From Gammaproteobacteria bacterium (GTDB lineage Bacteria; Pseudomonadota; Gammaproteobacteria; Ga0077554; Ga007554): a stretch of 64,000 nucleotides of DNA. The stretch is from assembly GCA_040183005.1 (NCBI GenBank), contig JAMPIW010000007.1, positions 62,001 to 126,000 on the forward strand, read 5' to 3'. Below are positions 9,746-34,426 of the stretch, piece by piece. The first letter of the stretch is position 1. Each line of letters opens with the position of its first letter. Below the pieces are notes generated by a model. The model did no database searches, was not told the DNA's origin, and was given only the letters and a program-made list of their open reading frames with translations. The position numbers were made by a program, and so were the translations under genes.

Positions 9746-10780
9746 TTACCTCGTCAGAAAAGGTACATAGCCTTCCATCTCACCACGGATAGTTCTTGCC
9801 ATGAACCGCGCCTGGAGTTGGGGCAACAGGCCGATAGGAACTTTTGTTTCCAGGAGGGGGTGAGCAATTTGTTCTTGTTTACGTTCTTGATAGGCTATAA
9901 CAACGGTTTTTCGAGCGTCATCACCGAGATAAACCGCGCCTCCTTCTCGCTCCAGAAAATCTTTGGCGCTGATTTGGGCGCGATTGATGAGCGTAAGTGC
10001 AAGGCGATCCGCCAAAATGGCACGAAACTCTTCCATCAAGTCGAGGGCTAGCGCCGCCCTGCCCGGCCTTACGGCATGCAGAAACCCCAGCTGAGGATCA
10101 AGGCCGACAGACTCCAGGGCTGAACGGCAATCGTTCATTGTCATTGAGTAAAGAAACGACAGCAACGCATTAAACCGATCCCGGGGTGGCCGACGTGAGC
10201 GGCCATTCATGGTAAAAGCTTCCCGCGCATCCGTGCGCAGGAGGCAATGCAGGGAAGAAAAATACACCTTCGCTGAATCGCCCTCGATGCCGCGCACCAC
10301 GTCCAAATCACCCGAGATGGCAAGGTTTCGTAAGGACCCTGCAAGAGAATCAGCAGCACGGCTCAATTGCTGCTGGTCTGCAACGTTACCCGCTTCGCGC
10401 GCGCCCCGCATTAGCACCTGCCGGGCATTTTTTATTTTTCCGGCAATCACGGCGCGCGACACATCAACAGCAAACCCTGAGTTTTCGGAGGCGCGATGCT
10501 GGGCCTGACGCAGCAGGATATTCCCGCTCACGGCCCCTTCCAGTCGCGCCTTAAAGCGCCCGTTGCGATCCAGTAAGACAATACTGATACCCTCATCCGC
10601 ACAGCGGTGCATGATCGCGGGAGACAACATGACGTCACCAAAGCACACCACCGCTCCGATATGATGCAACGGCGCCTGCATTTTCTTTTCGCGCTCCACG
10701 TCGATACGAATGGTATCGTTCTCCAGATGCAGGTAGGCGTTTGGTGTCATAACGTAAAGCGTATTGAGGATTTGTTGCAT
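9746..10780 (-). CDS. cas1: CRISPR-associated integrase Cas1 (type I-C)
   Basis: The product is 344 residues, the usual size. The conserved metal-binding residues are visible: Glu in RGIEGDSAKVYF, His in LGFLHAVRPGRAALALDLME, and acidic residues in that same segment. Cas1 with Cas2 inserts new spacers at the leader end. The start is preceded by AGGAG with good spacing. The first 20 bases of this gene and the region just upstream are duplicated 1060 bp away (11821-11933), so the cas4/cas1 junction was rearranged; the cas1 gene itself is intact. Confidence 0.97.
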   Translation of the reverse strand: MQQILNTLYVMTPNAYLHLENDTIRIDVEREKKMQAPLHHIGAVVCFGDVMLSPAIMHRCADEGISIVLLDRNGRFKARLEGAVSGNILLRQAQHRASENSGFAVDVSRAVIAGKIKNARQVLMRGAREAGNVADQQQLSRAADSLAGSLRNLAISGDLDVVRGIEGDSAKVYFSSLHCLLRTDAREAFTMNGRSRRPPRDRFNALLSFLYSMTMNDCRSALESVGLDPQLGFLHAVRPGRAALALDLMEEFRAILADRLALTLINRAQISAKDFLEREGGAVYLGDDARKTVVIAYQERKQEQIAHPLLETKVPIGLLPQLQARFMARTIRGEMEGYVPFLTR

Positions 10781-10873
10781 AGAGCTCCTATTGAGAGTTT
10801 GGCAATGTCATGTGTCACACTTCATCAGGCTCAAACAGCCCACTTCTCAGGTTATGTATTTTCCTGGTGGCGG
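10761..10873 (-). repeat. Direct repeat copy A: duplicated cas4-3'/cas1-5' junction
   Basis: This 113-bp stretch matches 11821-11933 with only four mismatches seen by eye (10800, 10803, 10852, 10863). It covers the cas1 start codon and first codons, the intergenic AGGAG region, and the last codons of a cas4 gene (ending RSGLFEPDEV). The two copies are exactly 1060 bp apart and bracket the MNT-HEPN pair. Confidence 0.9.
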
Positions 10874-11009
10874 AAGTTTTCAGGATTTGAATCAAGGTAC
10901 GTATGGCCGCAACGGTAAAATCTCCTTTCAGATAAATTAGCCCACAACGGCGCGGACAGGAGGTGTGTTGGTTAAGCGCAGATATGGGAATGGGTTCAAC
11001 GTCAACCAC
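10815..11009 (-). pseudogene. Internally deleted second cas4 (64-residue remnant)
   Basis: A GTG-started frame of 64 codons with AGGGA upstream. Residues 1-30 (with PISALNQHTSCPRRCGLIY) match the N-terminus of Cas4 proteins, including the first iron-sulfur Cys region. The rest (TVAAIRT... then KIHNLRSGLFEPDEV) matches the C-terminus of the intact cas4 at 11875. About 140 residues are missing, including the RecB-like nuclease core and the C-terminal Cys cluster. The N-terminal half is clearly diverged from the intact cas4, while the last 15 residues are nearly identical, so the remnant probably came from a different cas4 and had its 3' end homogenised or duplicated. The frame stays open across the deletion, so a short protein could still be made; the nuclease function is lost. 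Confidence 0.8.
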
Positions 11010-11019
11010 GGGTCTTTCC

Positions 11020-11409
11020 CTATACGGCGATCATCTGTTCGACATGGGCCAGCAATACACGCACGTTCTCGACCTCCTCGGCGCGGTTAATAGGCTCATC
11101 CAGCTCGGTGACACCTTCTTCATAGCGCGCCTGAACCGCGAACATGGTGTACTGAACCAGTGGCCAAAATTTTTCAACCTCCGCCCCCTGGTTCTCCAAT
11201 AGGGTAAACAGTCGTGTCAGATCGTGCGTCATTGGATAGATGGCGTCTCGAGTACAGAGCCATGCCTTCAGCGCCTTTTCCACTGCTTGCTGGACGTGAA
11301 AGCCAAAAATTTCATCGGCAAATAACGGATTTTCCCGCATTCCGACGAGTGCGTTGAAGTCCTTATGCGCCATGCGCAACATGGAGCGGGCATGTTCAAG
11401 GTCGGCCAT
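11020..11409 (-). CDS. HEPN-domain protein, partner of the MNT nucleotidyltransferase
   Basis: The product is 129 residues. The segment FHVQQAVEKALKAWL followed by IYPMTHDLTRLFTLL is the signature of the HEPN family of helical proteins (Pfam HEPN, PF05168-like). Such proteins are encoded with MNT nucleotidyltransferases and many pairs act as toxin-antitoxin systems, the HEPN partner being an RNase in HepT-type cases. The classical R-x4-6-H RNase motif is not obvious here (RDAIYPMTH has seven residues between Arg and His), so toxicity is uncertain. Start 11409 was chosen for the strong AAGGGAGGG six bases upstream; an in-frame start at 11448 lies inside the MNT gene. It overlaps the MNT 3' end by 14 bases. 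Confidence 0.8.
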   Translation of the reverse strand: MADLEHARSMLRMAHKDFNALVGMRENPLFADEIFGFHVQQAVEKALKAWLCTRDAIYPMTHDLTRLFTLLENQGAEVEKFWPLVQYTMFAVQARYEEGVTELDEPINRAEEVENVRVLLAHVEQMIAV

Positions 11410-11743
11410 GAAGCACCCTCCCTTCACGATGAGCCCTTCCAACGACATGGTTCAAGGAATTTTTCCAGTGGTCGAATTCATCCCGGCTGTACAGGAGAAT
11501 ATCCTTGGAAATCGCCAGCCCCCTTAACGCCATGTACAAGCGTGCCGCTTCCTTGCGACGGCTGCGCTGGGGCGAAAACGGTTCTTTTTCCACCACGAGC
11601 AAGTCAACGTCGGAGTCAGGCCTTGCATCGCCCCGCGCGCGCGAGCCGAAGAGGATGATGGCTTCCGGGGCAACCTCGCGGACGATGGTTTCCACCATTT
11701 GCCGTAGCAGAGTTTCTTCGTTACTGGAATGGATTTTGGTCAT
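11396..11743 (-). CDS. MNT-type minimal nucleotidyltransferase
   Basis: The product is 115 residues, typical of minimal nucleotidyltransferases. The active-site motif GSRARGDARPDSDVDLLVV is complete: Gly-Ser, then the Asp-x-Asp that binds metal and nucleotide. In MntA-HepT pairs this enzyme is the antitoxin and adenylylates the HEPN toxin. The start has an excellent ribosome site, AAGGAGG, seven bases upstream. A 21-bp palindrome lies 46 bases upstream of the start and may be its operator. The pair sits between cas4 and cas1 in the same orientation, bracketed by 113-bp direct repeats, so it looks like an insertion in the cas operon. Confidence 0.85.
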   Translation of the reverse strand: MTKIHSSNEETLLRQMVETIVREVAPEAIILFGSRARGDARPDSDVDLLVVEKEPFSPQRSRRKEAARLYMALRGLAISKDILLYSRDEFDHWKNSLNHVVGRAHREGRVLHGRP

Positions 11744-11840
11744 GTCGTTCCTCCTTATTATTCGTGCCTTTTGTGCAATCGTACACCTTTCGGTGGATTA
11801 TCCACCGAATGACATAGCGTGTATTGAGGATTTGTTGCAT
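11721..11840 (-). pseudogene. cas1 5' fragment left by the junction duplication
   Basis: The first seven codons (MQQILNT) and the ribosome site are identical to those of cas1; after 20 bases the sequence diverges and the frame stops after 39 codons, overlapping the start of the MNT gene. It shows that the intact cas4 was once followed directly by cas1 and that the MNT-HEPN block separates two copies of that junction. The 39-residue product is unlikely to do anything, but its translation could influence MNT translation. Confidence 0.75.
11789..11809. promoter_or_regulatory. 21-bp perfect palindrome upstream of MNT-HEPN (candidate operator)
   Basis: The arms TTCGGTGGAT and ATCCACCGAA flank a single central base. 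A perfect 10-bp dyad 46 bases before the MNT start suggests a binding site for a dimeric regulator, as in autoregulated toxin-antitoxin operons. No other copy was noticed in the window. Confidence 0.55.
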
Positions 11841-11933
11841 AGAGCTCCTATTGAGAGTTCGGTAATGTCATGTGTCACACTTCATCAGGCTCAAACAGCC
11901 CACTTCTCAGGTCATGTATTTTACTGGTGGCGG
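11821..11933 (-). repeat. Direct repeat copy B: duplicated cas4-3'/cas1-5' junction
   Basis: This copy includes the true 3' end of the intact cas4 and the aborted cas1 start. About 96 percent identical to 10761-10873. Together the two copies define a block of about 1.06 kb containing MNT, HEPN and the cas4 remnant. Confidence 0.9.
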
Positions 11934-12513
11934 CCACAGCTTCTGGTTGGCAAGTTTCTTTCAGCGAGCACTCCTTGCAGCGGGCATCATTAACGGGCGG
12001 GGGGAGTTTGCCGGATGCGAATAAGGTACGAATAGCCGCTACGGTTTCCTCAACTTGATAACGCAGGGTATCGGTGATTTCAACTTCACGGCGGCGGCGT
12101 GAGCTGTGATGATAAATCGCGCCACGATGAATCGCTTTGCCGGTCATCTCCTCCAGGCAGAGTGCTTGGGCAGCAAGTTGCAGATCGTCATGATGTTTCT
12201 GCCGCTTTGGCCCGTGTTTATACTCCACGGGATAAGGCGTGCCATCGGGTAAAAACTCCACAATATCGGCTTTGCCGACCAAGCCCAGGCGATCACAATA
12301 AAGCGGCAGGGCGCGTTCAGTACGCGCACCACCGTTTTCCGAAAACCCAGGATCATCCACCCGTTCATGTACGGCATTACCGCGCATGGTATGCACATTT
12401 TCAGCGAATGCCTGCTCTATGTGAATCAGCGCATACTGACGCGGACAATAGCTATAGTGCTGGAGGGCCGAGAGCATAATGGGTTCAATTCCCTGGCCGT
12501 CCATGCCAATCAT
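11875..12513 (-). CDS. cas4: CRISPR-associated exonuclease Cas4
   Basis: The product is 212 residues. It has the first Cys in YSYCPRQYALIH, the RecB-like nuclease core (GKADIVEF with the metal Asp, then VEYKHG as the E-x-K motif, then QLAAQALCLEE) and the C-terminal cluster CKECSLKETC that completes the 4Fe-4S site. Cas4 trims and selects PAM-containing pre-spacers for Cas1-Cas2, a standard member of I-C systems. The start ATG overlaps the hicA stop as ATGA, so its translation may depend on ribosomes finishing hicA. A second start three codons later is also possible. The gene ends inside a 113-bp direct repeat. Confidence 0.95.
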   Translation of the reverse strand: MIGMDGQGIEPIMLSALQHYSYCPRQYALIHIEQAFAENVHTMRGNAVHERVDDPGFSENGGARTERALPLYCDRLGLVGKADIVEFLPDGTPYPVEYKHGPKRQKHHDDLQLAAQALCLEEMTGKAIHRGAIYHHSSRRRREVEITDTLRYQVEETVAAIRTLFASGKLPPPVNDARCKECSLKETCQPEAVAATSKIHDLRSGLFEPDEV

Positions 12514-12752
12514 CCAAATAACCGTTGCAACAGTTCCTCGCGCGACACATGATGGTGTGCAGCCACATCGGCAAGAATCGCCGATAAGGTGCCGATGCGC
12601 AAAGGAACATGGTTAGGTATTGTTACGTGGTGCTGCACCGGAGAATCGCATGTGAGGCGGACATGACTACCGCTCTGGCGCGACACTCTGTAACCGAGTT
12701 TCTCCATTTTCATGATCAGTTCCGCACTCGTGAGGCCGCGCGGCAATCTCAT
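12510..12752 (-). CDS. hicA: HicA-type mRNA interferase toxin
   Basis: The product is 80 residues with the double-stranded-RNA-binding-like fold typical of HicA. Key features are LTSAELIMKMEKLGY, then SGSHVRL with the catalytic His, then HVTIPNHVPLRIGTL. HicA cleaves mRNA when not bound by HicB. Its start overlaps the hicB stop by four bases, and its stop overlaps the cas4 start by four bases. The frame is open upstream but the start at 12752 fits both family length and coupling. Finding it inside a cas operon, between cas7 and cas4, is unusual. Confidence 0.88.
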   Translation of the reverse strand: MRLPRGLTSAELIMKMEKLGYRVSRQSGSHVRLTCDSPVQHHVTIPNHVPLRIGTLSAILADVAAHHHVSREELLQRLFG

Positions 12753-12955
12753 ACGGCGATAACCTCTTCTCGTGTAAAGTGGAGGCGGATCATGCGCGGC
12801 TCTTTTCCTTCTTCGAAATGACAACGCACAGCATCCCGCACGCGCGCGTGAAGGGTTTCGATATCATCGGCTTCTGTAAAGATGGATTCGCCTAAAGCAC
12901 GCGCGGTATACCCCCCCTCTGGGGCGTTCTCAACTAAAAACAGGATTTCGTTCAT
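12749..12955 (-). CDS. hicB: HicB-like short antitoxin
   Basis: The product is 68 residues (MNEILFLVENAPEGGYTARALG...). It is the short HicB-type partner that usually precedes hicA; database entries of this kind are often mislabelled as an oxoisovalerate dehydrogenase subunit. It contains only the partial RNase-H-like fold that binds HicA and has no visible DNA-binding domain, so it may not autoregulate transcription. GAGGAG lies upstream; ATG at 12955 or GTG at 12958 could be the start. The 4-bp overlap with hicA is normal for this module. Confidence 0.8.
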   Translation of the reverse strand: MNEILFLVENAPEGGYTARALGESIFTEADDIETLHARVRDAVRCHFEEGKEPRMIRLHFTREEVIAV

Positions 12956-12985
12956 CACTATTCACTCCTCGTTTATATCTACACT

Positions 12986-13117
12986 TTAGCCTATTTTGCG
13001 TTCGAGCGTTATTCCCTTATGTGCCAGCGCATGGCCGAGTTTAGAAGCATACTTGAACACATAAAGCCTGCGCGTGGTCATCTTGGTGTGAGGGGTGGAC
13101 TGCGCGCCGATTTCCAT
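12986..13117 (-). CDS. Possible 43-residue small ORF between cas7 and hicB
   Basis: A short frame with ATG at 13117 and GGTGG eight bases upstream encodes a basic peptide (with RRLYVFKYASKLGHALAHKG). No family was recognised. It occupies most of the 195-bp gap between cas7 and hicB, and its composition looks plausible for a coding remnant, possibly the tail of a lost gene. It may equally be chance. Confidence 0.25.
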   Translation of the reverse strand: MEIGAQSTPHTKMTTRRLYVFKYASKLGHALAHKGITLERKIG

Positions 13118-13150
13118 ATTTTTACCACCCGCCAGCACAATATTCCTTCG

Positions 13151-13996
13151 TTAAAATCCATCAAGGATTTCTGGGGTCAATCCATTGAGCGGATCAAGCT
13201 TGATATTACCATCAGGCTGCACTGTTAGCGTACGGTGAACCTTGGCGGAGGAATACTGCCCTGATTTACTGTTATGCTGCCACCAGAGCACTTTTAGCAC
13301 TTCCATACTTCCTGCCGGTCTGGCGGATGACTCATCGTTTTCGAATATCTTCGGAAGCAACTGCTTGATCGCTCCAGCGTCGGCGTCGCTGAACCCTGTT
13401 CGTTCGGCCAACTGTGGATTCATACTACCGAAGAAAACGTAAACTCCCTTATCCACGCGGTGTTTCATGCCCATTGTGTCGGAGCCGCGCTTGCTGCCGT
13501 CTCCCTCGCCGCTAACACTTTTGGTGATCTGTGTGCTGCTGACATCGACTGGCTCTACGCTGAATGCAGACTGAACAGTGACGGGGCCACGAATGCCAAT
13601 GGACACGCCGCTATCTCCTTCGCTGTCCGCTTCTTTTTTGCCCTTCTTGTCAGCTTTGAACGCAAAAAGTTGACCAAATGCACGAACGTCAAACCATTGT
13701 TCGCAAGCCAGCTTCGCTGTTTCGCTTGAGCCAAGTTTTTTGCCAAGCGCTGCATCTGCTCTTGCTTTGAGGCTCTTGAAATCGTCTTTTTTTCGATCAT
13801 CAGACTGTACAAAAATACTTTGACCGCTCTCCAGCAGTCGATCTCTGAGCTTACGTTTAATGCAAACGTCAGTAATTTCACCATGCCCGTCATAGTCCGC
13901 GCGTGGGCGATTGCCGTTAAGCGGATCGCCGTTGGGGTTGGCGTGCGTGACGCGAAGGACAACGGCAAAGTCGATTTTGTTTTGTAATGTGCTCAT
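13151..13996 (-). CDS. cas7: Cas7 (Csd2), Cascade backbone subunit, type I-C
   Basis: The product is 281 residues starting MSTLQNKIDFAVVLRVTHANPNGDPLNGNRPR, the conserved N-terminus of Csd2/Cas7c. The start at 13996 was chosen for AAGGA seven bases upstream and the family N-terminus; the frame is open much further upstream inside cas8c. Several copies of Cas7 bind the crRNA spacer along the I-C Cascade. Ten bases separate it from cas8c. The C-terminal half keeps the family pattern (GMKHRVDKGVYVFFGSMNP, LKVLWWQHNSKSGQYSSAKV). Confidence 0.95.
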   Translation of the reverse strand: MSTLQNKIDFAVVLRVTHANPNGDPLNGNRPRADYDGHGEITDVCIKRKLRDRLLESGQSIFVQSDDRKKDDFKSLKARADAALGKKLGSSETAKLACEQWFDVRAFGQLFAFKADKKGKKEADSEGDSGVSIGIRGPVTVQSAFSVEPVDVSSTQITKSVSGEGDGSKRGSDTMGMKHRVDKGVYVFFGSMNPQLAERTGFSDADAGAIKQLLPKIFENDESSARPAGSMEVLKVLWWQHNSKSGQYSSAKVHRTLTVQPDGNIKLDPLNGLTPEILDGF

Positions 13997-14006
13997 GATG
14001 TTTTCC

Positions 14007-15983
14007 TTAAATGGTTTCGGTAGAGGTGGCTTCAGTATTCTCGTCTTGTTCCGTTTCAGGTTTTTCTCGGAGTTTTTGTCGCTGGCAGTGGTAGCCCAGT
14101 AAAAACTCCCCGGATAGCTTTCTTTCATCAATGAAGTCGTCGCCCTGAAACAAACAAATGACTTCATCAAGCTGCCTTTCCCTTGTATATAAAAATCCCG
14201 GCGCTCTTGAACGGAGGCGCGACTTGTAAGGCGCCAATGAAAGCTCAATATTTCGCCATGTCGGGTTCGGGTGGTCGGCGAAACGTTGCATGAGTTTTGC
14301 AGCCGATGTATCGCGTGACTCTTTTGTCATATCCAGCGCAAATTTCTCGATGTTTTCCGCAATCGCTAAAAGTCGGCCATACAAATAATCGCGTGTGGTT
14401 CGATTCAGTTCTAATGCCATTTGGTAACCCCTTTTTTTGTGATAACCCCTAGATAAAGCACAGGCAATGCCCAACACTTTTTCCCACTCATCCTCATACA
14501 TCTTGCCGTTGCGCTTTTTTCTTTCCATCCCTAATCTGTTGCAAGCCCTTCGGGTTACTGATTCAACCAAATCACGAGGAACTAATTGCCCATCAATAAT
14601 ACAGGGCAGTAAACGCTCCACTGTTGCATTGCGTAGCTTCTCGTTCAATCTGCGACCGAAGGCAGCTTCTGCAATATCCTTAGGCGCGGGTGCACCGATG
14701 AACTTCACTTCCTTGCCGAAGTCCTGGCCATAGTTTTGATACCAGGCATGATCTTTATGCCATGCTTCAATTCTCTCAAGAAATTCAGCGCAACCAGGTT
14801 CCCGATAGTAGGTCATCGCCATGCGACCGGGGGTGGCCGAATCCAGGCCCATCACCACAATCTCATTGGTGGAGCCGAGTTCTGCCCGATACCCGGCAAG
14901 GAGCTTTGCAAGTCGCTTACCAAAGGCTTGCCCTGCATCACCTTGAGGCACATGCTCAGGCACTTGTTCGGTTTCTGACTCATCTGTTGCAACACCAAAT
15001 AGCTCAAAAGAATTGTCCGTCGGGGCGGGTATCCTTTTGCCGGACACAGCCCACGCAACAATAGCTTGATCGCCATTTCGATATGCCTGTCGCGCAATCA
15101 GCCAACGCAAAGCGTTATGTGCTTTTTGTGTGACCTCGAAGCCCACCCCACATGCTTGGTCAGCATCAATAAATCTCCCGCGAAACGTAAAGCCGCTGGT
15201 GTCATTGGATGAAATGAATTTTGCTTTATCCGCGCCATGTCTGAGTTTGGCGGGATGTTGCTCTGCCAAATTCAGAATATCACCTGTGACCAAACAAAGC
15301 CCTTTGCTATCTTTTTGGCTGCTGTAGAAGCCAATCCAAGCATCCATCAAACCCTGATCTTTCCAAGTTTCCGGCAAAGGTTCACCAGGGATTTCCACTC
15401 GCCAACGAATGACTGCACCATCGGGGGAATTGCCGTTAGGCATGATGCCGAAAATCGCGGGCGCTTCTTTTTTGTCGCCTATCCACTCCGCCAGCAACTG
15501 TCCATCCTCATTGATGGGCAAGATTTTTTCTCGCACAAGATCGCCAACTAAATTCCCGTTCTGCACATAAGTTTGAATCGCGATTATTTTAGGATGCGTG
15601 AAAGATGAATTCGCCCAGTCGGACAAAAGAGATAGGTAAATCTTATGAGGTTCTGTTGGCTCGCCTGCAAACCCTGATGTTACCACACCGCCAAATTTGA
15701 GAAAGTCACCCGCGAGGTATTGCAGCTTGTCGCATAGTGGGTGATTGATGGGCTTGCTTCCAGCCCGACCAACAGATGCTTCTGTGCATGGCACAAGCGT
15801 CACGCCTTGCCCTTTTGGAATTACATTGGCACGTAAGAAACCACCTTTTCCGTCAATACTCACCTCGATGTGCGCTTGTTGGGAGGTATGGCATATTGGT
15901 TCCAGCGAAGTCCCGGTATTCGACAAGTCAGCTTGACCAGCACACTGCTCATAAGTCTCATAGAGTTTCTGAATCCAGCTCAT
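14007..15983 (-). CDS. cas8c: Cas8c (Csd1), large Cascade subunit, type I-C
   Basis: The product is 658 residues, at the long end for Csd1. The N-terminus ([13 protein letters not shown]), the segment [29 protein letters not shown] and the C-terminal part with [35 protein letters not shown] are characteristic. Cas8c recognises the PAM and starts R-loop formation; in I-C systems a small-subunit protein (Cas11c) is often made from an internal start in the 3' part of this gene. Its start overlaps the cas5 stop as ATGA. This gene defines the system as subtype I-C. Confidence 0.95.
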
Positions 15984-16711
15984 GTCAACTCCTCTAACGA
16001 CAAAGGCTCCTCATTTTCTACATCAAGAAGATTCTGCCCACGCTCAAATTTCTTCATGGTCATTTCCCTGACGAACTTACGAAGTTTGCAGTCCTCGGGG
16101 CGAGTAAATCGAATCACCCCATTCACCATCGTGGGTTGCCAAAAGCGAGTATGGAGATTGTTGTCACCAGTTTCATCGGGATAATCAAACCCGTGAAACA
16201 TGAGTCCGTAAGCAAGTTCACCATCATGATCGTAAGCCCCTTCCCCAGAACCAAACTTGCAAGCTTCGACATAGCCTTGGCAATCACGGGTGCCAAGAAA
16301 AATGTCTTGGCGACCGCCACGTTCCAGCATTCGCTTGGCGACGATGTGATGCTTGGATTCGTTGCGGTCTTCCACTAGTTCAGGCCGGTGCATATTCCAT
16401 TCAAAATGCGCTTTCACCTGATATTCAACATCCGACAGAAAAGTGTAGATCGCCAAGGTGTTGCCACCGCAATACTCCCGTGGCTTGGTGCCTTTGGTCT
16501 GAGTGCGAATGCGCTTCATCACCCGAACTTCGTCAATCACCCAAACAATGGTGGGCTTCCAGTAGATCGACTTGGCAACGCCCTTGAGAGCCTCGTAAGT
16601 CGGGATATGGTATGAACACTTCTCGCCGCCGATTTTTGTCAACGGGTCGGTGAACAGGGCAAATCGCCCCCACACCTTGAATTCAATGCTGCTTCTAGCT
16701 GGAACAGACAC
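15980..16711 (-). CDS. cas5: Cas5 (Cas5c/Cas5d), crRNA-processing Cascade subunit
   Basis: The product is 243 residues. In I-C systems Cas5 is the catalytic pre-crRNA endonuclease that replaces Cas6. The motif [16 protein letters not shown] contains the Lys-His pair reported as catalytic in this branch. The start is a GTG with a strong GGAGG six bases upstream, giving a 17-bp overlap with the cas3 end. It also overlaps cas8c by 4 bases, so cas3-cas5-cas8c are tightly coupled. Confidence 0.95.
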
Positions 16712-19196
16712 AAAGAGCCTCCATTATTCCTTTGGGCTCTAAACTCAGCCCAAAATCTTCGTTGTAGTAGCGGGCATCTGATAGATAAAGAATATCCACC
16801 CCCGTTTGTATTTCATGCAAGGCATTCTCCTTTTGTAGCTTTTCCAACTGGTGAGGAAATACGTTGACGGTATATTGCTGCGCCCGGCGCAAGAGTTTAA
16901 ATTGCTTTTCAACCTCGAATGCCCCGCAAAGCTCACCAATCAATTTTTTTCCCGCACTTCCGTAGGGAACGATAACACCCCGAGTCGGCGCATCAATCGA
17001 GTTGAACGCCTTGGCAGCAGCCATGAATGACTGACGAAGATACAGATTGAAAGGCGTGCCATGACAACGGTGAAATTCCTCTGCTGCATTGGCATTGCCA
17101 GCAAGCAGATTTAACAACGTGTCGTCATGTCCCAATACTTTACTGCTTACCGGGTAATCCATTTCGCCGCGTCGCTCCGCAAAATAGTAGTTGAAGTAGC
17201 AAGCTATAGCAGACGGACTAAGCAAGTCGTTGTCAAATTGGGCGGGATCTTTTTCAAATTCGTCGAGAAGCCGCTCTGTAACACGCTGCCCACAAGCGAT
17301 GTCCACGAGCATATCCACTCGCTCTTCGCTGAGGTTGACGACATGGACATGCCCAATATCACGCAGTCCATTCCGGTTGCATCTACCCGCTGCCTGCGCA
17401 ATGGAGTCCAGTCCTGCAACTGAGCGGATAACCGCACCAAAATCCACATCCACGCCCGCTTCAATCAATTGGGTGCTGACGCATAGTATTGCCTCCTGGG
17501 CTTTAAGGCGTTGCCGAATTTCCGCCAGAATTGCACGTCGGTGAACTGGACACATGCTCGTACTCAAGTGATATATCGGCATGGCTGTCTTCTCATCGCG
17601 GCACAACTGAAATATCGCTTGAGCCGATTTCTTGGTGTTGACGATCACTAGGCAGCTATTAGCTTTTCTGGCTTCTTCCATTGCAAGAGTTGCAACTTCC
17701 TTATCTGACCAACCTCCGGGTTTTCTCCGATTGAGAACTTCGACCCGTTTGAGCTTTCTGAAAAGCTCACCCACATCAGGCATGATTTCATTGCTCGGTG
17801 GAATGCGTAGCGCACCTTTGGATTGCTCGACCATATCCATGAGTGGTTGTGTGGCTGTGCATAACACGACTGTCGTGCCGCAATGTTCAACGAGATAATT
17901 GATAGCGTTGCAGAAGAGGTGAATGCAATTGACGGGTAGTGTCTGGATTTCATCAAATACCAATACGGCATTGGCTAATTGATGCAACCGCCGTGCTCCG
18001 CGTGTACCCGCACCGAACAGCGTTTCTAGCATCTGTACGTTGGTGGTGTAAATGACTGGTGCATCCCAATTTTCGACCAATATCTTGGTTATCCAATTTT
18101 CCTCTTCCGGCATAAGGTTGGAATGATGCTCAAGCACAACGCTGCCGGTTTTCACTCCATCCGGTTCAAGAATTTTCAGAACCACGTCGGCATTCTGGTC
18201 GATAATAGAGGTAAAAGGAATGGCATAAATCACCCTATCCATTTTGTGTTTTTTAGCGTGATGCAGAGCAAAGCGCAGGCTGGCGAGAGTCTTGCCGCCT
18301 CCCGTTGGAACCGTCAAGGTGTAGATACCTTTGCCCTTCTCTGCTTTGTCCCGGCAATGTTGAGAGATGCTGAGACGCAGTTCGTCGATGGGATGTTTGG
18401 CAACAAAACTTGATAGACGCATATCAAGCCGATTTATCAAATGCGTCCAATTGCCATATTGTCCATGTCTCCTAGCCTTTGCGGCGTGTGGTTTTTCAAA
18501 GTCAGCACTGTTGATACGGTCGGCATCAATCAGGCAACTGAACATATATCGAACAAGCAGCCCAACCTTGAATCGGATAATTCGTTCATCGCCACGGCTT
18601 TCTCCACGTACAATTTTTCCAATGGATTCTTTGATGCCGTTAATAATCTCTTCTGGACTGTTCACTAATTCATGAAAGCGAGCCTTAACTGTATCGTCCA
18701 TTTTGTCCATAGCTTCCCGAAGATGGGTGCGATCATCTGATTTTCTAATTCTCCTGGTGAAGTTATCTGCCCCTAAGCTTTTAGTGTCCGAAGACAGGCA
18801 ATCAATCAAGCCTGAATGGTGGGATGCGATGCACAAGGCGAGTATCTGACCAACGACTTTTCCAAGCTCGCCGTGCTTAGAAAATTCTTGCCAAATTAGC
18901 TGCGCACCAGCTGTGGAATGGTCTACCTTTCCTTTCTTGCTCTTCGCATCAACATAATCATCTTCGTCTTGGTCGATCAAACCCACGGCCGATTTCAGAT
19001 AAATCTGAAACTCATCGCTGTACTTGCCCAAGTCATGGAGCAGACCAATCAGCTCGCCTTGATTCTGCAAGCCAATCTTGGCTGCCAGTGACTTTGCAAT
19101 TATCGAAACCTCAAGTAGATGAGCCTCTAAACTTTGCTCTTTTCCATCTGACTTTCGTTGATGTGCAATGTAGGTCATCGCGTCGCTATTGTCCAT
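16695..19196 (-). CDS. cas3: Cas3 helicase-nuclease, type I-C
   Basis: The product is 833 residues with an N-terminal HD nuclease ([26 protein letters not shown]) and an SF2 helicase: Walker [14 protein letters not shown], the DEIQTLP box, motif III CTATQP, and motifs V-VI in [13 protein letters not shown] and [11 protein letters not shown]. All key residues are visible, so it should be active in unwinding and degrading target DNA after Cascade binding. It is first in the cas operon. The start may be 19196 or six codons later; neither has a clear ribosome site. Confidence 0.96.
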
Positions 19197-26954: not shown

Positions 26955-28184
26955 TTAGAAGGCAAAGAACAGCCGCACACTGGCGTAATCCATTTTCTTG
27001 GAACTCACGGGGGCGGCGCCCTCGACACCGGCTTTCTGCAGCTCTTTGACATAGGCAGCAGTGAGCTTGATGTTTTGGTAGGGGGCGTACACCAGGCCGC
27101 CGGTCATCTGTGATTCGATTGCACTGCTCGAATAACCATTGTCGGTGCGATCAAAACGCGCCATTGCCATCCAGCCACGCTGAATTTTATAGTCTCCCTG
27201 TAACGCAAAGCCGGTGACATTGCCGTGCGCATCATTGCCGGAGTTGTCCCTGGAGTATTGCGCACGTACATCCACGGGATCAAAGCGCCAATTGCCGGCC
27301 ACAGTATACATTTTCACATTTGTATTTCTGTCATCGTAATAGAGCAGGGAGACCGAGTTCTTCTTCAGAATATCCCAACGCCCCATCAGCCAGTAATCGA
27401 GTTTATTTTTGTTGTCGGGATCCGTCTTGGGATTGGCTAAGGCTGCGGCCCAGATGAATTGGTCGTTGTACCCATAATATTCAATCGCCGATCTTGGATC
27501 ATAGCCGCTACCCACTGGCGTGAAACCACGGTCTTTGCCATCGTTGCTGTAGGATGCAATCTTTGGGACCAGGGAATCAATGCCCGCACCATTGCCATAG
27601 AAAGATGTCCATGTAGTCGGATCCAGTGAGCCAACGCGAGCATTTAGCAGAGTTGTGTCATTAAAGTTTGTCTTGCCGATGAAGTAGCGGTCCATCTCAA
27701 CAACGCCGTCGGGGGAGTGTTCCAGTTCCGCCCAGATTGGAACATCCTTGGCGATGGTTCCGGTTGCAAGCAGGGTGAGTTTGGTGGGCTGGCCGATAGT
27801 TTTTTTGTTGGAATCACCTGTCTTTTCTAGGAGAGAGAGATTGCCAGTGACGGAGAAAATTTCCGAAATCCGTCCTAAAAAGAGGTCGTCTGCTACCTTC
27901 TTTTTTTCTTCTCCATCTTTTGATTTGTCTTCGCCTTCAATACCAGTGACAGCCTGTTCTTCAGAGCTGCCCGGCATCTGGAAACCGTTTCTCATAAAGC
28001 GTTCGCCTTTCTCGTTGAGGCGCGGGAAGGAAACGCTGTGACATTTATTACAAGCGGCCCCCGTGGAGCGGGCAAAGGCCGGTGTGGCTTGCGCGGTTGT
28101 GCTCACCATACTCAACATGCCGCCAAGCACTAAGGAAAATAGTAATGCGATTCCCGCCCAGGTGTTTTTGATCTGTACTATCAT
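26955..28184 (-). CDS. Mono-haem c-type cytochrome fused to an outer-membrane beta-barrel (Cyc2-like layout)
   Basis: The product is 409 residues with a signal peptide, a single N-terminal haem motif in FARSTGAACNKCHSV, followed by PRLNEKGERFMRNGFQMPG, then many alternating beta strands and a final VRLFFAF typical of outer-membrane barrels. A haem domain in front of a porin barrel is the design of Cyc2 iron oxidases and of several barrel-cytochrome families; the sequence here is not close enough by eye to decide. It would let electrons cross the outer membrane without a separate porin-cytochrome complex. It is the last of three genes with a haem-binding protein and a NapC-type protein. Confidence 0.7.
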   Translation of the reverse strand: MIVQIKNTWAGIALLFSLVLGGMLSMVSTTAQATPAFARSTGAACNKCHSVSFPRLNEKGERFMRNGFQMPGSSEEQAVTGIEGEDKSKDGEEKKKVADDLFLGRISEIFSVTGNLSLLEKTGDSNKKTIGQPTKLTLLATGTIAKDVPIWAELEHSPDGVVEMDRYFIGKTNFNDTTLLNARVGSLDPTTWTSFYGNGAGIDSLVPKIASYSNDGKDRGFTPVGSGYDPRSAIEYYGYNDQFIWAAALANPKTDPDNKNKLDYWLMGRWDILKKNSVSLLYYDDRNTNVKMYTVAGNWRFDPVDVRAQYSRDNSGNDAHGNVTGFALQGDYKIQRGWMAMARFDRTDNGYSSSAIESQMTGGLVYAPYQNIKLTAAYVKELQKAGVEGAAPVSSKKMDYASVRLFFAF

Positions 28185-28366
28185 AGATATCTCCCTTTAC
28201 ATTGTTGTTGATCCAATTTGGTAAACCCTGAAAAAGTCCATCCCTGGAATTTTTCAGCTCGCAAAGCAGAAAGCAGCCTCGCTGCACGTTTCAAAATGTA
28301 AGTTTTAAAACGTGTCCATTCATCCCTGAACGGCGGGAATCTCTGAGCAAACCGGAGGTCCCTTTA

Positions 28367-29329
28367 TTATTGTTTAACTGCTATAAAATCCGCATTGCCG
28401 CTATCAATAGCTAAATTTCTTCCGAAAGACAGATAGTGGAAGCGTCCCTCGGTATAGTCATCGTGAATCGCGAATCCCACCATATAGGTAGAACCTGGCG
28501 CAAAATCTTCCTGTCCATCACCGGAAGATTTGAGCGGGCGGCTCATCACCACCGTCCACTTGCCGTCCTTGAATGCCGAGGTGGCATCGATGCTCTTTTC
28601 GGGTTTGTGACGCTTTTCGAGAATGTATCCACTGCCAGCCTTCGCGGGCTGTCCTTTGTTCAGTTTGGCCTGCCAATACTCCATAAAGACGCCGCTTTTC
28701 AGAAGCGTCTCCAGTTCGGCTGGAGACTTGAAGTCATCCCCCCCGCCTTGGCGTTTTAGTTTGTTGCGCGAAGCGGGTAGATAGAGGGTTCTTTCTTTTC
28801 CGGTTGTGGCGCTCGCCATGTCGGTGGCATCATCATGACAACCTGCCCAGCAACCGGCAATGGCAGCTTCCTTGACGACCTTGCCGCTCGCGAACATGAC
28901 AGCGAGTTTTACAGCGTTATCGGGATCCATCTTCTTGGGCGCATGGAAATTGGGGTCGGTCCACTCTACACGTACGTAAAGACGTTCGTTATCGCGGGCG
29001 AACTTGGCATTCGCCTTCAAAAAGCCCGATTTGCCACTGATAGGGGTGGGTTCGAGTTTTTTCCCCGAGACGAGGACGGTGCCCATATCCTTTTCTTCAC
29101 CGTCATGGCATTCGAGGCATTTTGTGCCATTTTTTACGCTTTTTGATGCGCTATGATCTGTCAGCAGCCATTCCCATGATGCCTGGCCGGGATAGAATAA
29201 TACAATATCCTGCCCCTTGACAGCATCCCAATTCACTGTCGGGGCTGCGCTTGCGTGCGTGCCAATCATGCAAAAAGCCGAAGCAACAAATAACGAGAGC
29301 AAAGTCCTTGATGGCGGGTTTTTATTCAT
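28367..29329 (-). CDS. Periplasmic cytochrome with ethylbenzene-dehydrogenase-type haem-binding domain
   Basis: The product is 320 residues with a signal peptide. Two haem c motifs are visible: TKCLECHDG (normal CxxCH) and AGCWAGCHDD, which is C-x3-CH and unusual. The second part (LYVRVEWTDPNFH ... YMVGFAIHDD ... RFHYLSFGR) resembles the haem-binding gamma-type domain of ethylbenzene and DMS dehydrogenases and of membrane-bound cytochromes in that family. It probably shuttles electrons in the periplasm between the NapC-type protein and the outer-membrane cytochrome. Gaps of 38 and 182 bases separate it from its neighbours. Confidence 0.75.
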   Translation of the reverse strand: MNKNPPSRTLLSLFVASAFCMIGTHASAAPTVNWDAVKGQDIVLFYPGQASWEWLLTDHSASKSVKNGTKCLECHDGEEKDMGTVLVSGKKLEPTPISGKSGFLKANAKFARDNERLYVRVEWTDPNFHAPKKMDPDNAVKLAVMFASGKVVKEAAIAGCWAGCHDDATDMASATTGKERTLYLPASRNKLKRQGGGDDFKSPAELETLLKSGVFMEYWQAKLNKGQPAKAGSGYILEKRHKPEKSIDATSAFKDGKWTVVMSRPLKSSGDGQEDFAPGSTYMVGFAIHDDYTEGRFHYLSFGRNLAIDSGNADFIAVKQ

Positions 29330-29367
29330 GGAAGCCTCCTGGTTACGCTGATAAATTGCATGATGAT

Positions 29368-29940
29368 TTACGGGGATATAGAAAAGGTGTCTTCTGCGCC
29401 TTCGTTCTTTTTTGTTTGCTCATGAATTGGTTTGTGTGCGATGCCTTTGTGGCAATCGATGCAGGTTGAGCCATCCTTCATTGCATTCTGGTGCTGTTTC
29501 TGTGCCCTAAGGCGTTGGTTTTTGAGTTCCATGGCGCCAAACTGGTGGCAGTTGCGGCATTCTTGTGAGTTATTCGCTTTCATACTATCCCATACGCGCT
29601 GGGCCATCTCCGGCCGCCTGGCTTCAAATTTCTCTGGTGTATCTATGGTTCCGGCGAGATGATGATAAACATCCTTTGCGGCCATGATTTTGCGAATCAG
29701 CGTGGGTCCCCAGCTCCTGGGAATGTGGCAGTCAGAGCAGTCGGCACGGACACCATCTGGGTTATTGTAGTGAATGGTCTTCTTGTATTCTTCATAAACC
29801 GTTGTTTTCATCTCGTGGCAGGAGATGCAGAATTCGGTTTTGCTGGTATATTCAACTGCGGAAGGAATGGCAAGCGCACCGATAACAATGCCACCGGCAA
29901 ATATAAGGCCAAAGATGTACCACTTGGCGTGACGAAACAT
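29368..29940 (-). CDS. NapC/NirT-family tetrahaem quinol dehydrogenase
   Basis: The product is 190 residues with one N-terminal membrane helix (WYIFGLIFAGGIVIGALAIP) and four CxxCH motifs: CISCH, CSDCH, CRNCH and CIDCH. This is the NapC/NirT/CymA layout, which exchanges electrons between quinol and periplasmic partners. Start 29940 was chosen for AAGGA seven bases upstream; the frame runs further back into the insertion sequence that now lies 62 bases upstream. That insertion has probably removed the native promoter. Confidence 0.9.
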   Translation of the reverse strand: MFRHAKWYIFGLIFAGGIVIGALAIPSAVEYTSKTEFCISCHEMKTTVYEEYKKTIHYNNPDGVRADCSDCHIPRSWGPTLIRKIMAAKDVYHHLAGTIDTPEKFEARRPEMAQRVWDSMKANNSQECRNCHQFGAMELKNQRLRAQKQHQNAMKDGSTCIDCHKGIAHKPIHEQTKKNEGAEDTFSISP

Positions 29941-30002: not shown

Positions 30003-30824
30003 GGTTCTGTTGACGTTTCGCGGTTTTGGTAGAATCCGCCGTTTTAGGTTGGCATGGACAGAACCAAAATAAGCGATAGTGAGTGGGTGCGTATATTGTC
30101 ACACTTAACTAAATTGACGGGCGTGCATCTCGGATCGCCCGATAAATGCAGGCGATTTATGGGCGCATCATTGTGGATACTGCGCACCGGCGCGCAGTGG
30201 CGGACGCTGCCGCCAGAGCATGGCAAATGGAATAGTGTCTTCAAGCGATACTCACGTTGGTGTGCGAATGGCGCATGGGATAGATTGCTCACTTATTTTT
30301 CTGAAGATGCTGATTTACAAGATGTTTCTATTGATGGAACGGTGACAAGAGCGCACGCCTGTGCCGCAGGCGCGGCGGGCAGTTCGGCTGAAAAAGAAGC
30401 GCTGGGGCGCTCCAAAGGTGGGTTTAGCTGTAAGATTCATGCGGCCTGTGATGCACTTGGCATGCCGATTGAATTCATTCTGACGGGTGGCCAAACGGCG
30501 GAGTGCACGGTCGCAATACCGCTGCTGGAAGGCATCCAAACATCAGCACTTCTGGCGGATAAAGGCTACGACACAAACGAGCTGCGCGCGTGGTTAAAGG
30601 CGCGTGGGATAGAGGTTGTGATTCCGCCGAAGTCGAACCGAAAAGAGAAAATTGACTGTGATTATTGGCTTTATAAGGAGCGACATGCCGTCGAATGCAT
30701 GTTTGGCAAGCTCAAGCATTATCGCCGGATTGCTACTCGATATGAGAAAAAAGCTGTTAATTACATGGGAATGCTATCTTTTGCGGCGGTACTTTTGTGG
30801 CTGAGATGAAACGTCAACAGAACC
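30003..30824 (+). mobile_element. IS5-family insertion sequence, intact, 822 bp, TA target duplication
   Basis: Inverted ends GGTTCTGTTGACGTTTC and GAAACGTCAACAGAACC are perfect over 17 bp. Each end is flanked by TA, fitting the 2-bp duplication of some IS5 subgroups. It carries one complete transposase frame. It is inserted between the divergently arranged NapC-type and cytochrome b genes. Confidence 0.9.
30054..30809 (+). CDS. IS5-family DDE transposase
   Basis: The product is 251 residues in one uninterrupted frame. The DDE triad is visible: Asp in VSIDGTVTRAH, Asp in LLADKGYDTNEL, and Glu in AVECMFGKLKHYRRIATRYEK. The N-terminal helix-turn-helix (SDSEWVRILSHL) contacts the inverted ends. 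Many elements of this subgroup need a frameshift between two frames; this one does not. Nothing suggests it is inactive. Confidence 0.93.
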   Translation: MDRTKISDSEWVRILSHLTKLTGVHLGSPDKCRRFMGASLWILRTGAQWRTLPPEHGKWNSVFKRYSRWCANGAWDRLLTYFSEDADLQDVSIDGTVTRAHACAAGAAGSSAEKEALGRSKGGFSCKIHAACDALGMPIEFILTGGQTAECTVAIPLLEGIQTSALLADKGYDTNELRAWLKARGIEVVIPPKSNRKEKIDCDYWLYKERHAVECMFGKLKHYRRIATRYEKKAVNYMGMLSFAAVLLWLR

Positions 30825-30915: not shown

Positions 30916-31236
30916 GCTGGCACAGTATGATAGGCGATCAATATTAATTTAAGATTAAGGCCCCGTTAGTCGCCTGTCACATTCAATGGCATTGGGTGAT
31001 GTGTCTGCGCGGCAGATTTTTTGGGTCGAGAGGGTATGGTTGCTGATCGGCGTTAACCTTGTTTTAAGTGTGGCCGCGTAATATGCACCCCATAGCAAGG
31101 CATGGGGTCTTGCCGGTTTTTGAGACAAGTGGCGATCATGCATACTTCAAGCAAACATGTTCTGACCAATACGGCAACAATGAGCGCGTCTGTTGGCGCG
31201 CGTCCTTCCAAGTCATCGTCAGACGAGATTCGAGCC

Positions 31237-31815
31237 ATGAAATACAACAAATTGACACGCTGGCTTCATGCCGGTATTGCGCTGGGCGTCACCTTGCAGC
31301 TATTGCTTAGTTTGGTTATGGAAACACCAAGGCCGGGCCGGCCTTTCGGCGGCCTGGAAGCTACTGCTTTTGAATCTCACGAAGTGATTGGGTTATTTGT
31401 GTTCGGCGTGTTGCTGTTGCACTGGCTTTTTCTATTGTCCGGCCATATCCGTCTCGGGATGGAGCATTTGTTCCCATGGTTTTCGCGGCAACGCCGCGAT
31501 GCCGTGACAGATGAAATCAAACAGCAGTGGGTGCGGCGCCGCTTGGATGACACGCATCAGATCAGTGCCATTGCCGGTGCAACTCATGGCCTCGGCCTGC
31601 TGGTGACGAGCATCATGGCGATAACCGGCGTCACCGTCTACTTCGGTATGGCGGAAAACGGCGCGATGCCGCCCGCCGTGGATTTCATCAAGGAAACGCA
31701 CAGCTTTTTTGCAACGTTCATGTGGATCTACCTGATCAGTCATGCGGGCGTTGGAATGGTCCATCAGTGGCTGGGGCATCGCACGGTTTCCGATATGTTT
31801 GATTTGCGAAAATAG
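31237..31815 (+). CDS. Di-haem cytochrome b (b561 / Ni-Fe hydrogenase b-subunit type)
   Basis: The product is about 192 residues beginning MKYNKLTRWLHAGIALGVT, the standard opening of this membrane cytochrome family, with four hydrophobic helices and His residues in RWLHAG, FESHEVIG, LLHWLF and LISHAGVGMVHQ as haem ligands. It would pass electrons between quinones and periplasmic cytochromes. In-frame starts exist at 31102 and 31138, which would add an unusual soluble N-terminus. The next element is a cut-off response-regulator gene, as in the cytochrome b561-regulator pairs seen in many proteobacteria. Confidence 0.75.
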   Translation: MKYNKLTRWLHAGIALGVTLQLLLSLVMETPRPGRPFGGLEATAFESHEVIGLFVFGVLLLHWLFLLSGHIRLGMEHLFPWFSRQRRDAVTDEIKQQWVRRRLDDTHQISAIAGATHGLGLLVTSIMAITGVTVYFGMAENGAMPPAVDFIKETHSFFATFMWIYLISHAGVGMVHQWLGHRTVSDMFDLRK

Positions 31816-31941: not shown

Positions 31942-32508
31942 CTAAAGTTCACCTGGCCTGGCCTGGCCTGGCGCCGCCGGTGACAGGTTTCCCGTCAACG
32001 TCCATTCGATAGCTCCCTTTGCTCCGGCCGCCGGTTGAGTGGTTACGTTGCAGGCGGTGATGCCCGCCGGTAGCGGTGCGCCGCAGTTTGCCGACAGAAA
32101 TGTGGTGTACGCCGGTGTGGCATCACGGAGGACAATAGCGCTGACAGGGGTGCTGCCATTATTCTGGTAAGTAATTGTGTAGGTGATAGCTTCGCCAAGC
32201 TTGACAGTGAGCTTGTCGATGCTCTTGATGAGCGCCAGCCCCACGCTGCCTACTTGCGTCGTGTCGGTTAACGTCAGCGTGGAGGATAAGGCAGGGCTGG
32301 CATTGGTGTAGCTAAAGCTGGCGCCTATCGTTATCCCGTCCTGCGTGTTCATTGCGGTGCCTGGCGGGATGCTCACCTTGTCGATCAGGCACATTTGCTG
32401 GGCGGCCGTAACACTGATTGCGCCGGGCCGCCGTTTTATATAAGCTCTTGAATCTATTGCAAACTGTCTTGAGGTGCCTCTTGTCCAAGGAGTTTGGGTG
32501 GCCGACAA
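31942..32508 (-). pseudogene. Fragment of a DUF11-repeat surface protein
   Basis: The frame encodes about 188 residues of which most (SYTNASPALSSTLTLTDTT, then GLALIKSIDKLTVKLGEAIT) match DUF11-type beta-sandwich repeats of large secreted proteins. There is no signal peptide and the only start is a TTG, so the 5' part is missing. At the 3' end, the expected strand is lost where four CCAGG units occur and the frame ends in APGQARPGEL, so a slip in that repeat probably caused a frameshift. It overlaps the upstream region of the response regulator on the other strand. Confidence 0.65.
31952..31971. repeat. Four tandem CCTGG units at the end of the DUF11 fragment
   Basis: The pentamer is repeated four times in succession. 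Because five is not a multiple of three, gain or loss of a unit changes the reading frame. It sits exactly where the DUF11 homology of the fragment ends. Confidence 0.85.
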
Positions 32509-33255: not shown

Positions 33256-33289
33256 CCCTTTGCTGGGGTGCGCCATGCAAGGTGGATTC

Positions 33290-34426
33290 ATGGACGCGCC
33301 GCGCTGGTTGGAAGACGAAAGGGAAATCCTCGAGCTGCTTCACGCCTTTCTTGACAAACTGGACCGCAAACCCGCCGAAGAGTGGCAGCATCCACCGGCG
33401 GTAACACTAAACCAACCCTGTTTTCCCCGCTTGTTTCAGTTCGGCCAGGATGCCGACCGCACGTGGGGATTGTTGCGCGCGCTTGAGCAAGACTTTCACG
33501 TACTTACCATCAAGCTTGACCGCAAACGCGGCCCCTACGAACCTGAATATGCCCGTGCCCGCCTAGTGCTGAATCCTACGATGGAAGACACACTGCGTAA
33601 CTGGCTGGCGCGGCCCAGGGAAACGCCGCTGCTCCGCCAATGGCAGGAGGCCGTTGAACGCGCGCAACACCATTTTCCGGGAGACAGCACCCGCCTCAAA
33701 GCCCGCCCCATCGTCATTCCCGGGAAGTCGCCCGAGGACATCGTCAAGGCGTTCATAGCCATTGCCGACATTGGCCGCAACGAACTCAATCTGCGCCAGA
33801 TCAGCGCGCTTTCTTTCTGGGGGCATTCCAAGATCCTGGATAATCGTGAAGACCTGCTCACCGCCCTCTATCGCCATCTGGCCATCAAGCCTAGAAAGAT
33901 ACTGGTGAATGTCTATTTGCCAAAAACCGTTACCGGCGTTCTTTTTATAGAAAATCAGGACAGCTACACCAGCGCCGTCGAAGGCGCGCCCGCCGCTGCG
34001 GCCAACATGGCACTGGTCTATTGCTCCGGATTTCGCGGCAGCGCACAGCGCATCCGTGATCAGGCAGGGGTTAGCCTGCATTACCAGGGTGAGGGGTATG
34101 GGCGCTGGAGGGAAAGCTGGGAGCAATGGTGGTTATCGAGCAATGCTTATCCATGGCCGACCTATTTCTGGGGAGATCTGGATTATTCCGGAATGGCCAT
34201 TTTGAAGGCTTTGCGGCAGCGCTTTCCCGAGATGCAAGCCTGGCCGCCGGGATACCACGATATGCTCCGTCATCTGCTCGAAGGACGTGGCCACTCCCCG
34301 GAAATGGGGGATAAAGAAGAGCAGATCGACCCTGGGATGACAGGGTGCCCGCTTGCCGACAATGTGCTGTTACCGGCGATCCGTGAACACAAATTATTTG
34401 TGGATCAGGAGATTGTTTTCAGGTGA
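33290..34426 (+). CDS. JetD-like (Wadjet subunit D) DUF3322/DUF2220 protein, orphan
   Basis: The product is 378 residues. The C-terminal half has the TOPRIM-like features of DUF2220/JetD: Glu in VLFIENQDSYTS and Asp-x-Asp in YFWGDLDYSGMAILKALRQRFP. The N-terminal half is consistent with the DNA-binding DUF3322 region. In Wadjet, JetD is the nuclease that cuts plasmids gripped by the JetABC SMC complex. No jetA, jetB or jetC lies in the window, so it is an orphan or part of another system. ATG 33290 has AAGGTGG upstream; earlier in-frame starts at 33260 and 33275 are less supported. It follows an orphan response regulator. Confidence 0.75.
   Translation: MDAPRWLEDEREILELLHAFLDKLDRKPAEEWQHPPAVTLNQPCFPRLFQFGQDADRTWGLLRALEQDFHVLTIKLDRKRGPYEPEYARARLVLNPTMEDTLRNWLARPRETPLLRQWQEAVERAQHHFPGDSTRLKARPIVIPGKSPEDIVKAFIAIADIGRNELNLRQISALSFWGHSKILDNREDLLTALYRHLAIKPRKILVNVYLPKTVTGVLFIENQDSYTSAVEGAPAAAANMALVYCSGFRGSAQRIRDQAGVSLHYQGEGYGRWRESWEQWWLSSNAYPWPTYFWGDLDYSGMAILKALRQRFPEMQAWPPGYHDMLRHLLEGRGHSPEMGDKEEQIDPGMTGCPLADNVLLPAIREHKLFVDQEIVFR

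Follow-up and report, generated by a model that had tools for sequence, protein, structure and literature searches.

A napC, EB_dh and cytochrome-porin operon as a candidate quinone-linked electron conduit across the envelope of a gammaproteobacterium

Pathways of the Mto and Mtr type reach the quinones and need many haems. In the usual scheme, to our knowledge, Cyc2 pathways lead to soluble cytochromes and an oxidase, and there is no agreed direct route from Cyc2 to quinone. Here we describe a three-gene cytochrome operon encoding a NapC/NirT-type protein, a periplasmic protein of the EB_dh fold, and a single-haem cytochrome-porin (hereafter the barrel). It occupies positions 26955–29940 of a 64,000-nucleotide stretch of a gammaproteobacterial genome (assembly GCA_040183005.1, contig JAMPIW010000007.1, positions 62,001 to 126,000), which we call the window. 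The Mto system of Sideroxydans lithotrophicus ES-1 (MtoA, MtoB, ImoA, PmcA, and MtoD) is similar in that an autotroph carries a NapC/NirT protein, a periplasmic haem carrier, and an outer-membrane exit in one cluster (PMC9600427, PMC13390432). It differs in its exit, which consists of a decahaem protein and a large porin, and in its periplasmic carriers, which are small monohaem cytochromes and not EB_dh-fold proteins. A cluster of DmsE, MtrB/PioB, NapC/NirT, and “another c-type cytochrome” was reported from Ferrovaceae in 2026 and called Mto-like (PMC13390463); its exit is of the MtrAB type, and as described it has no cytochrome-porin. Literature searches among open-licence papers found no description of the three-gene combination, in agreement with the original prediction, made from the letters of the window, which did not recognize it as a named system. 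We consider, with a probability of roughly 0.6, that the three genes together form a single electron conduit that crosses the envelope and connects with the quinone pool.

All three genes lie on the minus strand with intact reading frames, in the order napC (29368–29940, 190 amino acids), the EB_dh gene (28367–29329, 320 amino acids), and the barrel gene (26955–28184, 409 amino acids). The intergenic gaps are 38 bp between napC and the EB_dh gene and 182 bp between the EB_dh and barrel genes. In the related loci L036 and L055, the latter gap shrinks to 26 and 39 bp, respectively, which supports co-transcription. The napC gene starts with ATG, with AGGAAAAGAT just before it. There is no decahaem gene in the operon, and the combination of MtrB/PioB with a decahaem cytochrome that marks an Mtr, Mto, or Pio conduit is absent from it.

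The napC product has four CXXCH motifs, the first of which reads CISCHEM, and a single N-terminal membrane helix is apparent from its sequence. It belongs to the NapC/NirT domain family PF03264 (7.6e-69, 231 bits, cut-off 24.1), which bears out the expectation of a tetrahaem NapC-type membrane protein and makes it a putative quinone dehydrogenase. Against the NCBIfam model TIGR02161 (napC_nirT), it scored 225.5 bits (4.4e-67), below the curated cut-off of 310.6. Judged by these profile scores, it is a family-level relative of napC_nirT that falls outside the curated subfamily.

The second protein belongs to the family PF09459 (5.9e-31, 108.8 bits, cut-off 33.3) and does not reach the curated cut-off of TIGR03477 (50.1 bits against 169.9). 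It has a signal peptide and two sites for haem c, CLECH (71–75) and CWAGCH (160–165). The periplasmic di-haem protein that had been expected is therefore present in the number of its haem sites, although the second is a non-standard CX3CH. Across 22 aligned EB_dh sequences, the CXXCH, the CX3CH, H289, and H298 are invariant. A model built from the 22-sequence alignment (mean pLDDT 74.8) is nearest to EbdC (2ivf_C, Z 14.4) and NXR-C (Z 13.7), both of which score clearly higher than unrelated folds. Met155 and Lys305 are the haem-b ligands of NXR-C, and EbdC likewise uses Met and Lys (PMC8387239). In a profile alignment, the position of the lysine (four residues after the conserved R296) is valine, leucine, or threonine in all 22 EB_dh sequences, and this ligand is thus absent. 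The CX3CH lies close to the expected position of the methionine ligand, a placement that is approximate. The former haem-b pocket may now house a histidine-ligated covalent haem, and a lowered haem potential should result from such a replacement. No gene for a molybdenum subunit is found among the locus neighbours. The window protein thus shares the fold and family of the EbdC and NXR-C gamma subunits, and differs from them in its two covalent haem sites, its missing haem-b lysine, and the lack of a molybdenum partner nearby. We considered whether the set belongs with ethylbenzene dehydrogenase or with a different molybdenum enzyme and dropped the idea, because no such gene is adjacent and the lysine ligand is missing. 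The term “ethylbenzene-dehydrogenase-type”, as originally applied to this protein, is a fold label only.

In the third protein, a signal peptide (recognized by eye) is followed by one CXXCH motif, ATPAFARSTGAACNKCHSVSFPRL, and then a predicted 16-stranded barrel. Its match to Porin_4 (7e-4) is weak and under the cut-off, a search of solved structures with its sequence gave chance matches only, and a search for relatives in viral contigs found none. An AlphaFold model of the barrel (from four sequences) has 16 strands, and the structures nearest to it are porins with 16 strands, OmpU among them (Foldseek 2e-9), with the reservation that the model is of low confidence (mean pLDDT 47.8). The pLDDT is mostly 53–78 in the C-terminal half and about 25 in the haem region, too poor to place the haem or to tell whether it forms a plug in the barrel.

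The predicted layout of this protein had been likened to that of the Cyc2 iron oxidases. The published signature of Cyc2 is AXPXFAR[Q/K][T/Y] before the haem motif and PXL after it (Keffer 2021, PMC8406198). The barrel resembles Cyc2 of clusters 1–3, which have a signal peptide, a single CXXCH followed by PXL, 400–500 residues, and a predicted 16-stranded barrel: it has one CXXCH in CNKCH-SVSF-PRL, with PXL four residues on, and at 409 residues it exceeds the length threshold used (at least 365); the 16 strands of its low-confidence model would agree with a fused barrel. The upstream motif, in contrast, is ATPAFARST, one residue off (S for Q/K), and its three clade mates deviate as well (ATAAFARLT, ATPAFARAT, and ATPAFSRST). 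In a tree with 21 other cytochrome-porins, drawn from the class and not including reference Cyc2 sequences, the four barrels form their own clade (100/100) on a long branch, and the sister group (96/94) consists of four porins of 500–550 residues. The barrel further differs from Cyc2 in its tie to NapC–EB_dh; every known member of its clade directly follows an EB_dh gene, and no NapC or EB_dh neighbours occur at six other cytochrome-porin loci that were examined. As far as motifs can tell, the barrel is Cyc2-like and not Cyc2 by the published signature, and it may work like Cyc2.

The EB_dh–barrel pair recurs. Searching whole genomes of the class with the barrel yielded two relatives of full length (G314, 54% identity; G184, 43%), whose contigs G314 C99 and G184 C1 were taken as the loci L035 and L055, respectively. 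A scan of named genomes for EB_dh gave 22 loci. Together, three other gammaproteobacterial metagenome-assembled genomes (MAGs) have the pair in the same order at 42–61% identity: L035 (groundwater MAG nzgw582), L055, and L036 (also a groundwater MAG). NapC precedes the pair in L035 and L055, and the contig of L036 ends just before EB_dh. Because the pair recurs, with NapC upstream wherever the contig extends, the three-gene set is not a chance association. The genes do not divide among separate known pathways. In L055, a response regulator and a sensor kinase are encoded downstream of the set. The operon napC is the sole NapC/NirT gene in the window genome, as it is in all three searchable genomes with the whole operon, each of which also has RuBisCO.

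Other loci combine EB_dh with different partners. In alphaproteobacterial MAGs (L037–L045), a DmsE-family decahaem gene always follows EB_dh, and an MtrB/PioB porin is also encoded, except in L039, whose contig ends first. NapC is upstream in L037 and L040–L044, and none was seen at the loci L038, L039, and L045. The gammaproteobacterial locus L092 has the order EB_dh–DmsE–MtrB. The Ferrovaceae cluster probably has the same layout as L037–L045, in the MtrAB form, with a fourth protein that may be EB_dh. In two of the alphaproteobacterial loci, a CcmF gene, part of a thioredoxin-like fusion in L043, directly follows NapC–EB_dh–DmsE–MtrB (L043, 11631–14219; L044, 11553–14153), and it is possibly relevant to maturation of the CX3CH haem.

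A second kind of locus contains nirS, the gene for cytochrome cd1 nitrite reductase. It is followed either by a fused NapC–EB_dh protein of 557–611 residues (L049–L052, L054, L087, L088, L090, and L091) or by NapC and EB_dh as two neighbouring genes (L096 and L098). The one-haem protein upstream of the fusion was at first taken for a Cyc2-like porin and proved to be the nitrite reductase. The fusion in many NirS-linked loci indicates that the NapC and EB_dh domains act together. The fused protein is likely a quinol-to-nitrite electron donor, of which we found no description. It recalls the known NirT beside NirS, where a NapC/NirT protein also stands next to its periplasmic partner; the window differs in that its genome has no NirS. 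At two further loci (L089, 5273–8962; L097, 3740–7392), a di-haem cytochrome c and the flavoprotein of flavocytochrome c sulfide dehydrogenase (FCSD) come after NapC–EB_dh, which suggests that electrons from sulfide may pass into (or out of) the quinone pool via NapC–EB_dh.

Such company elsewhere raises the question of whether the barrel is a solute porin that happens to carry a haem, with NapC–EB_dh serving a different periplasmic reductase. The NirS- and FCSD-linked loci agree with this explanation, as do three Rhodopila MAGs (L046–L048, 6241–7924) in which no recognized partner lies within about 7 kb of NapC–EB_dh. We nevertheless regard it as very improbable. All known members of the barrel clade keep their place directly behind EB_dh, and a search of the window genome found no cytochrome cd1 gene. 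Furthermore, 32 EB_dh proteins fall on two sides of a maximum-likelihood tree (100/99): the NirS- and FCSD-linked copies, together with one Desulfuromonadales outlier, and the MtrAB- and barrel-linked copies, together with those of Rhodopila; the window protein groups with the conduit-linked copies. Alphaproteobacteria and gammaproteobacteria are present on both sides, so that the split tracks the partner and not the taxonomy. The four barrel-linked proteins group together in the best tree, at weak support values (65/53). It is mainly because its EB_dh protein belongs to the conduit-linked kind that we interpret the operon of the window as a conduit across the outer membrane, and the proposed route between quinol and the cell surface gains support from the related NapC–EB_dh pairs beside DmsE and MtrB/PioB. 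From these sequence comparisons, NapC–EB_dh appears to be a portable quinone adapter, which is joined here to a single-haem barrel instead of MtrAB. The single-haem-barrel variant and the partner-swapping pattern appear to be new, whereas the kinds of component protein are already known.

In the conduit that we propose, the NapC/NirT protein would exchange electrons with quinone at the inner membrane, and the EB_dh-fold protein, with two covalent haems, would carry them across the periplasm. By analogy with homologous contexts, the single-haem barrel would be their passage across the outer membrane and would exchange them with a soluble one-electron partner outside the cell. With the haem occupancy, partner contacts, and electron flow that it presumes, this scheme would resemble the Mto, Pio, and Mtr porin-cytochrome pathways, the decahaem-plus-porin exit of the MtrAB type being replaced by one Cyc2-like gene. 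ImoA has a working range of 0 to −400 mV, and its partner is the low-potential PmcA and not the high-potential MtoD (PMC13390432). The absence of the lysine that ligates the high-potential haem b and the covalent haem sites in all 22 EB_dh sequences fit a low-potential carrier of the kind that ImoA needs.

As for direction, we lean slightly towards uptake of electrons, for instance from Fe(II), over their export; the odds are little better than even, and reversal is plausible. The preference has three grounds: all genomes with the whole set that were searched for RuBisCO encode it, the barrel exit resembles Cyc2, and the nearest precedent with a link to quinone is Mto. The RuBisCO genes also make the hosts likely autotrophs. 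Several points weigh against uptake or against the conduit itself. A Cyc2 haem was measured near +208 mV (PMC8406198), from which direct reduction of quinone would be uphill, favouring export or an oxidase branch. ImoA, the closest characterized quinone-linked analogue, oxidizes quinol in vivo (PMC9600427), and in the NirS-linked relatives electrons should flow from quinol towards nitrite. Most sister genomes without the operon encode RuBisCO as well, so that it does not point specifically to the operon's direction. In addition, the barrel model is poor, and the case for a conduit is built from sequence, models, and gene context.

Three of these points speak directly for the same conduit working outward, with NapC oxidizing quinol and EB_dh and the barrel delivering electrons to an extracellular acceptor such as Fe(III), humics, or another cell, so that the barrel would be a terminal reductase or vent: NirS-linked relatives imply quinol oxidation, ImoA performs it (PMC9600427), and transfer from quinol to a haem at about +200 mV is downhill (potential from PMC8406198). 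On the other hand, likely autotrophic hosts need donors, no gene for an extracellular reductase is found nearby, cytochrome-porins of known activity are otherwise oxidases, and the FCSD-linked relatives L089 and L097 suggest electron input. An outward conduit is, in our judgement, rather unlikely, while deserving more weight than the other alternatives.

The history of the operon bears on whether it is still in use. An insertion sequence (IS) element of 822 bp lies on the plus strand at 30003–30824, with a transposase gene at 30054–30809, 17-bp perfect terminal inverted repeats, and TA flanks on both sides; its transposase sequence suggests an IS5-like family. The napC start codon is 62 bp downstream of the end of this element, and an alternative longer napC open reading frame from GTG reaches 30102, entering the transposon end. 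The IS element may have cut or replaced the promoter of the operon. In the same-genus genome G004, only a C-terminal barrel fragment of about 86–89 codons is left between uvrB and a b561 gene (L003, 1501–1758; L101, on contig G004 C72), indicating that the operon was deleted there. NapC/NirT was found in none of seven family relatives. RuBisCO was found in all but one of the eight genomes searched in the order. A different cytochrome-porin occurs in two relatives from the same genus and in one genome belonging to a third genus.

These observations would also suit a decaying relic, inactive in this strain after loss of its promoter to the IS element and compatible with either direction in the relatives. 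The closeness of the element, the lone barrel fragment in G004, and the absence of NapC from the other family members searched are in line with decay, as is a promoter scan that found no sigma-70-like site just upstream of napC. That scan is weak, uninformative evidence, however, and promoters can come from insertion elements too; the three frames are intact and keep their haem and signal sequences. Decay therefore seems unlikely to us, and somewhat less probable than outward flow. Returning to the conduit, searches of the window genome found no MtrB/PioB (PF11854) and, with either query used, no other cytochrome-porin; among outer-membrane conduits of these types, the operon is consequently the only one found in the genome, which also encodes RuBisCO and at least one haem-copper oxidase.

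Beyond the IS element, a cytochrome b561-type membrane protein (PF01292, 3.1e-18) is encoded on the plus strand at 31102–31815, divergent from the set. The b561 gene adjoins the barrel remnant in the sister genome G004 (L003/L101), and whether its product is part of the system is uncertain. A short open reading frame with a single DUF11 domain (31942–32508) is probably a piece of a larger surface protein gene. Directly 3′ of a response-regulator gene, positions 33260–34426 encode a protein with a Wadjet JetD C-terminal domain (4e-8). CRISPR-Cas genes, including Csd1 (the type I-C signature), Cas1, and Cas3, are located at 9746–19196.

In this operon, one periplasmic protein would connect a single-haem barrel with a putative quinone dehydrogenase. 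A wider proposal, which we offer tentatively and rate somewhat below an even chance, is that NapC–EB_dh serves Pseudomonadota generally as a quinone adapter working in both directions, and that its terminal module has been swapped in at least three ways (MtrAB, cytochrome-porin, and periplasmic enzymes). The monohaem barrel of the window would then replace the decahaem porin complex in a minimal three-protein, quinone-wired route of extracellular electron transfer, with a Cyc2-like barrel possibly running outward. If it works, the operon would be a minimal three-gene route suitable for transfer to a laboratory host. With it, one could test whether barrels of the Cyc2-like kind only oxidize Fe(II) or run both ways. 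In metagenomes, the partner-swapping EB_dh protein would also mark quinone-linked conduits that have not been annotated.

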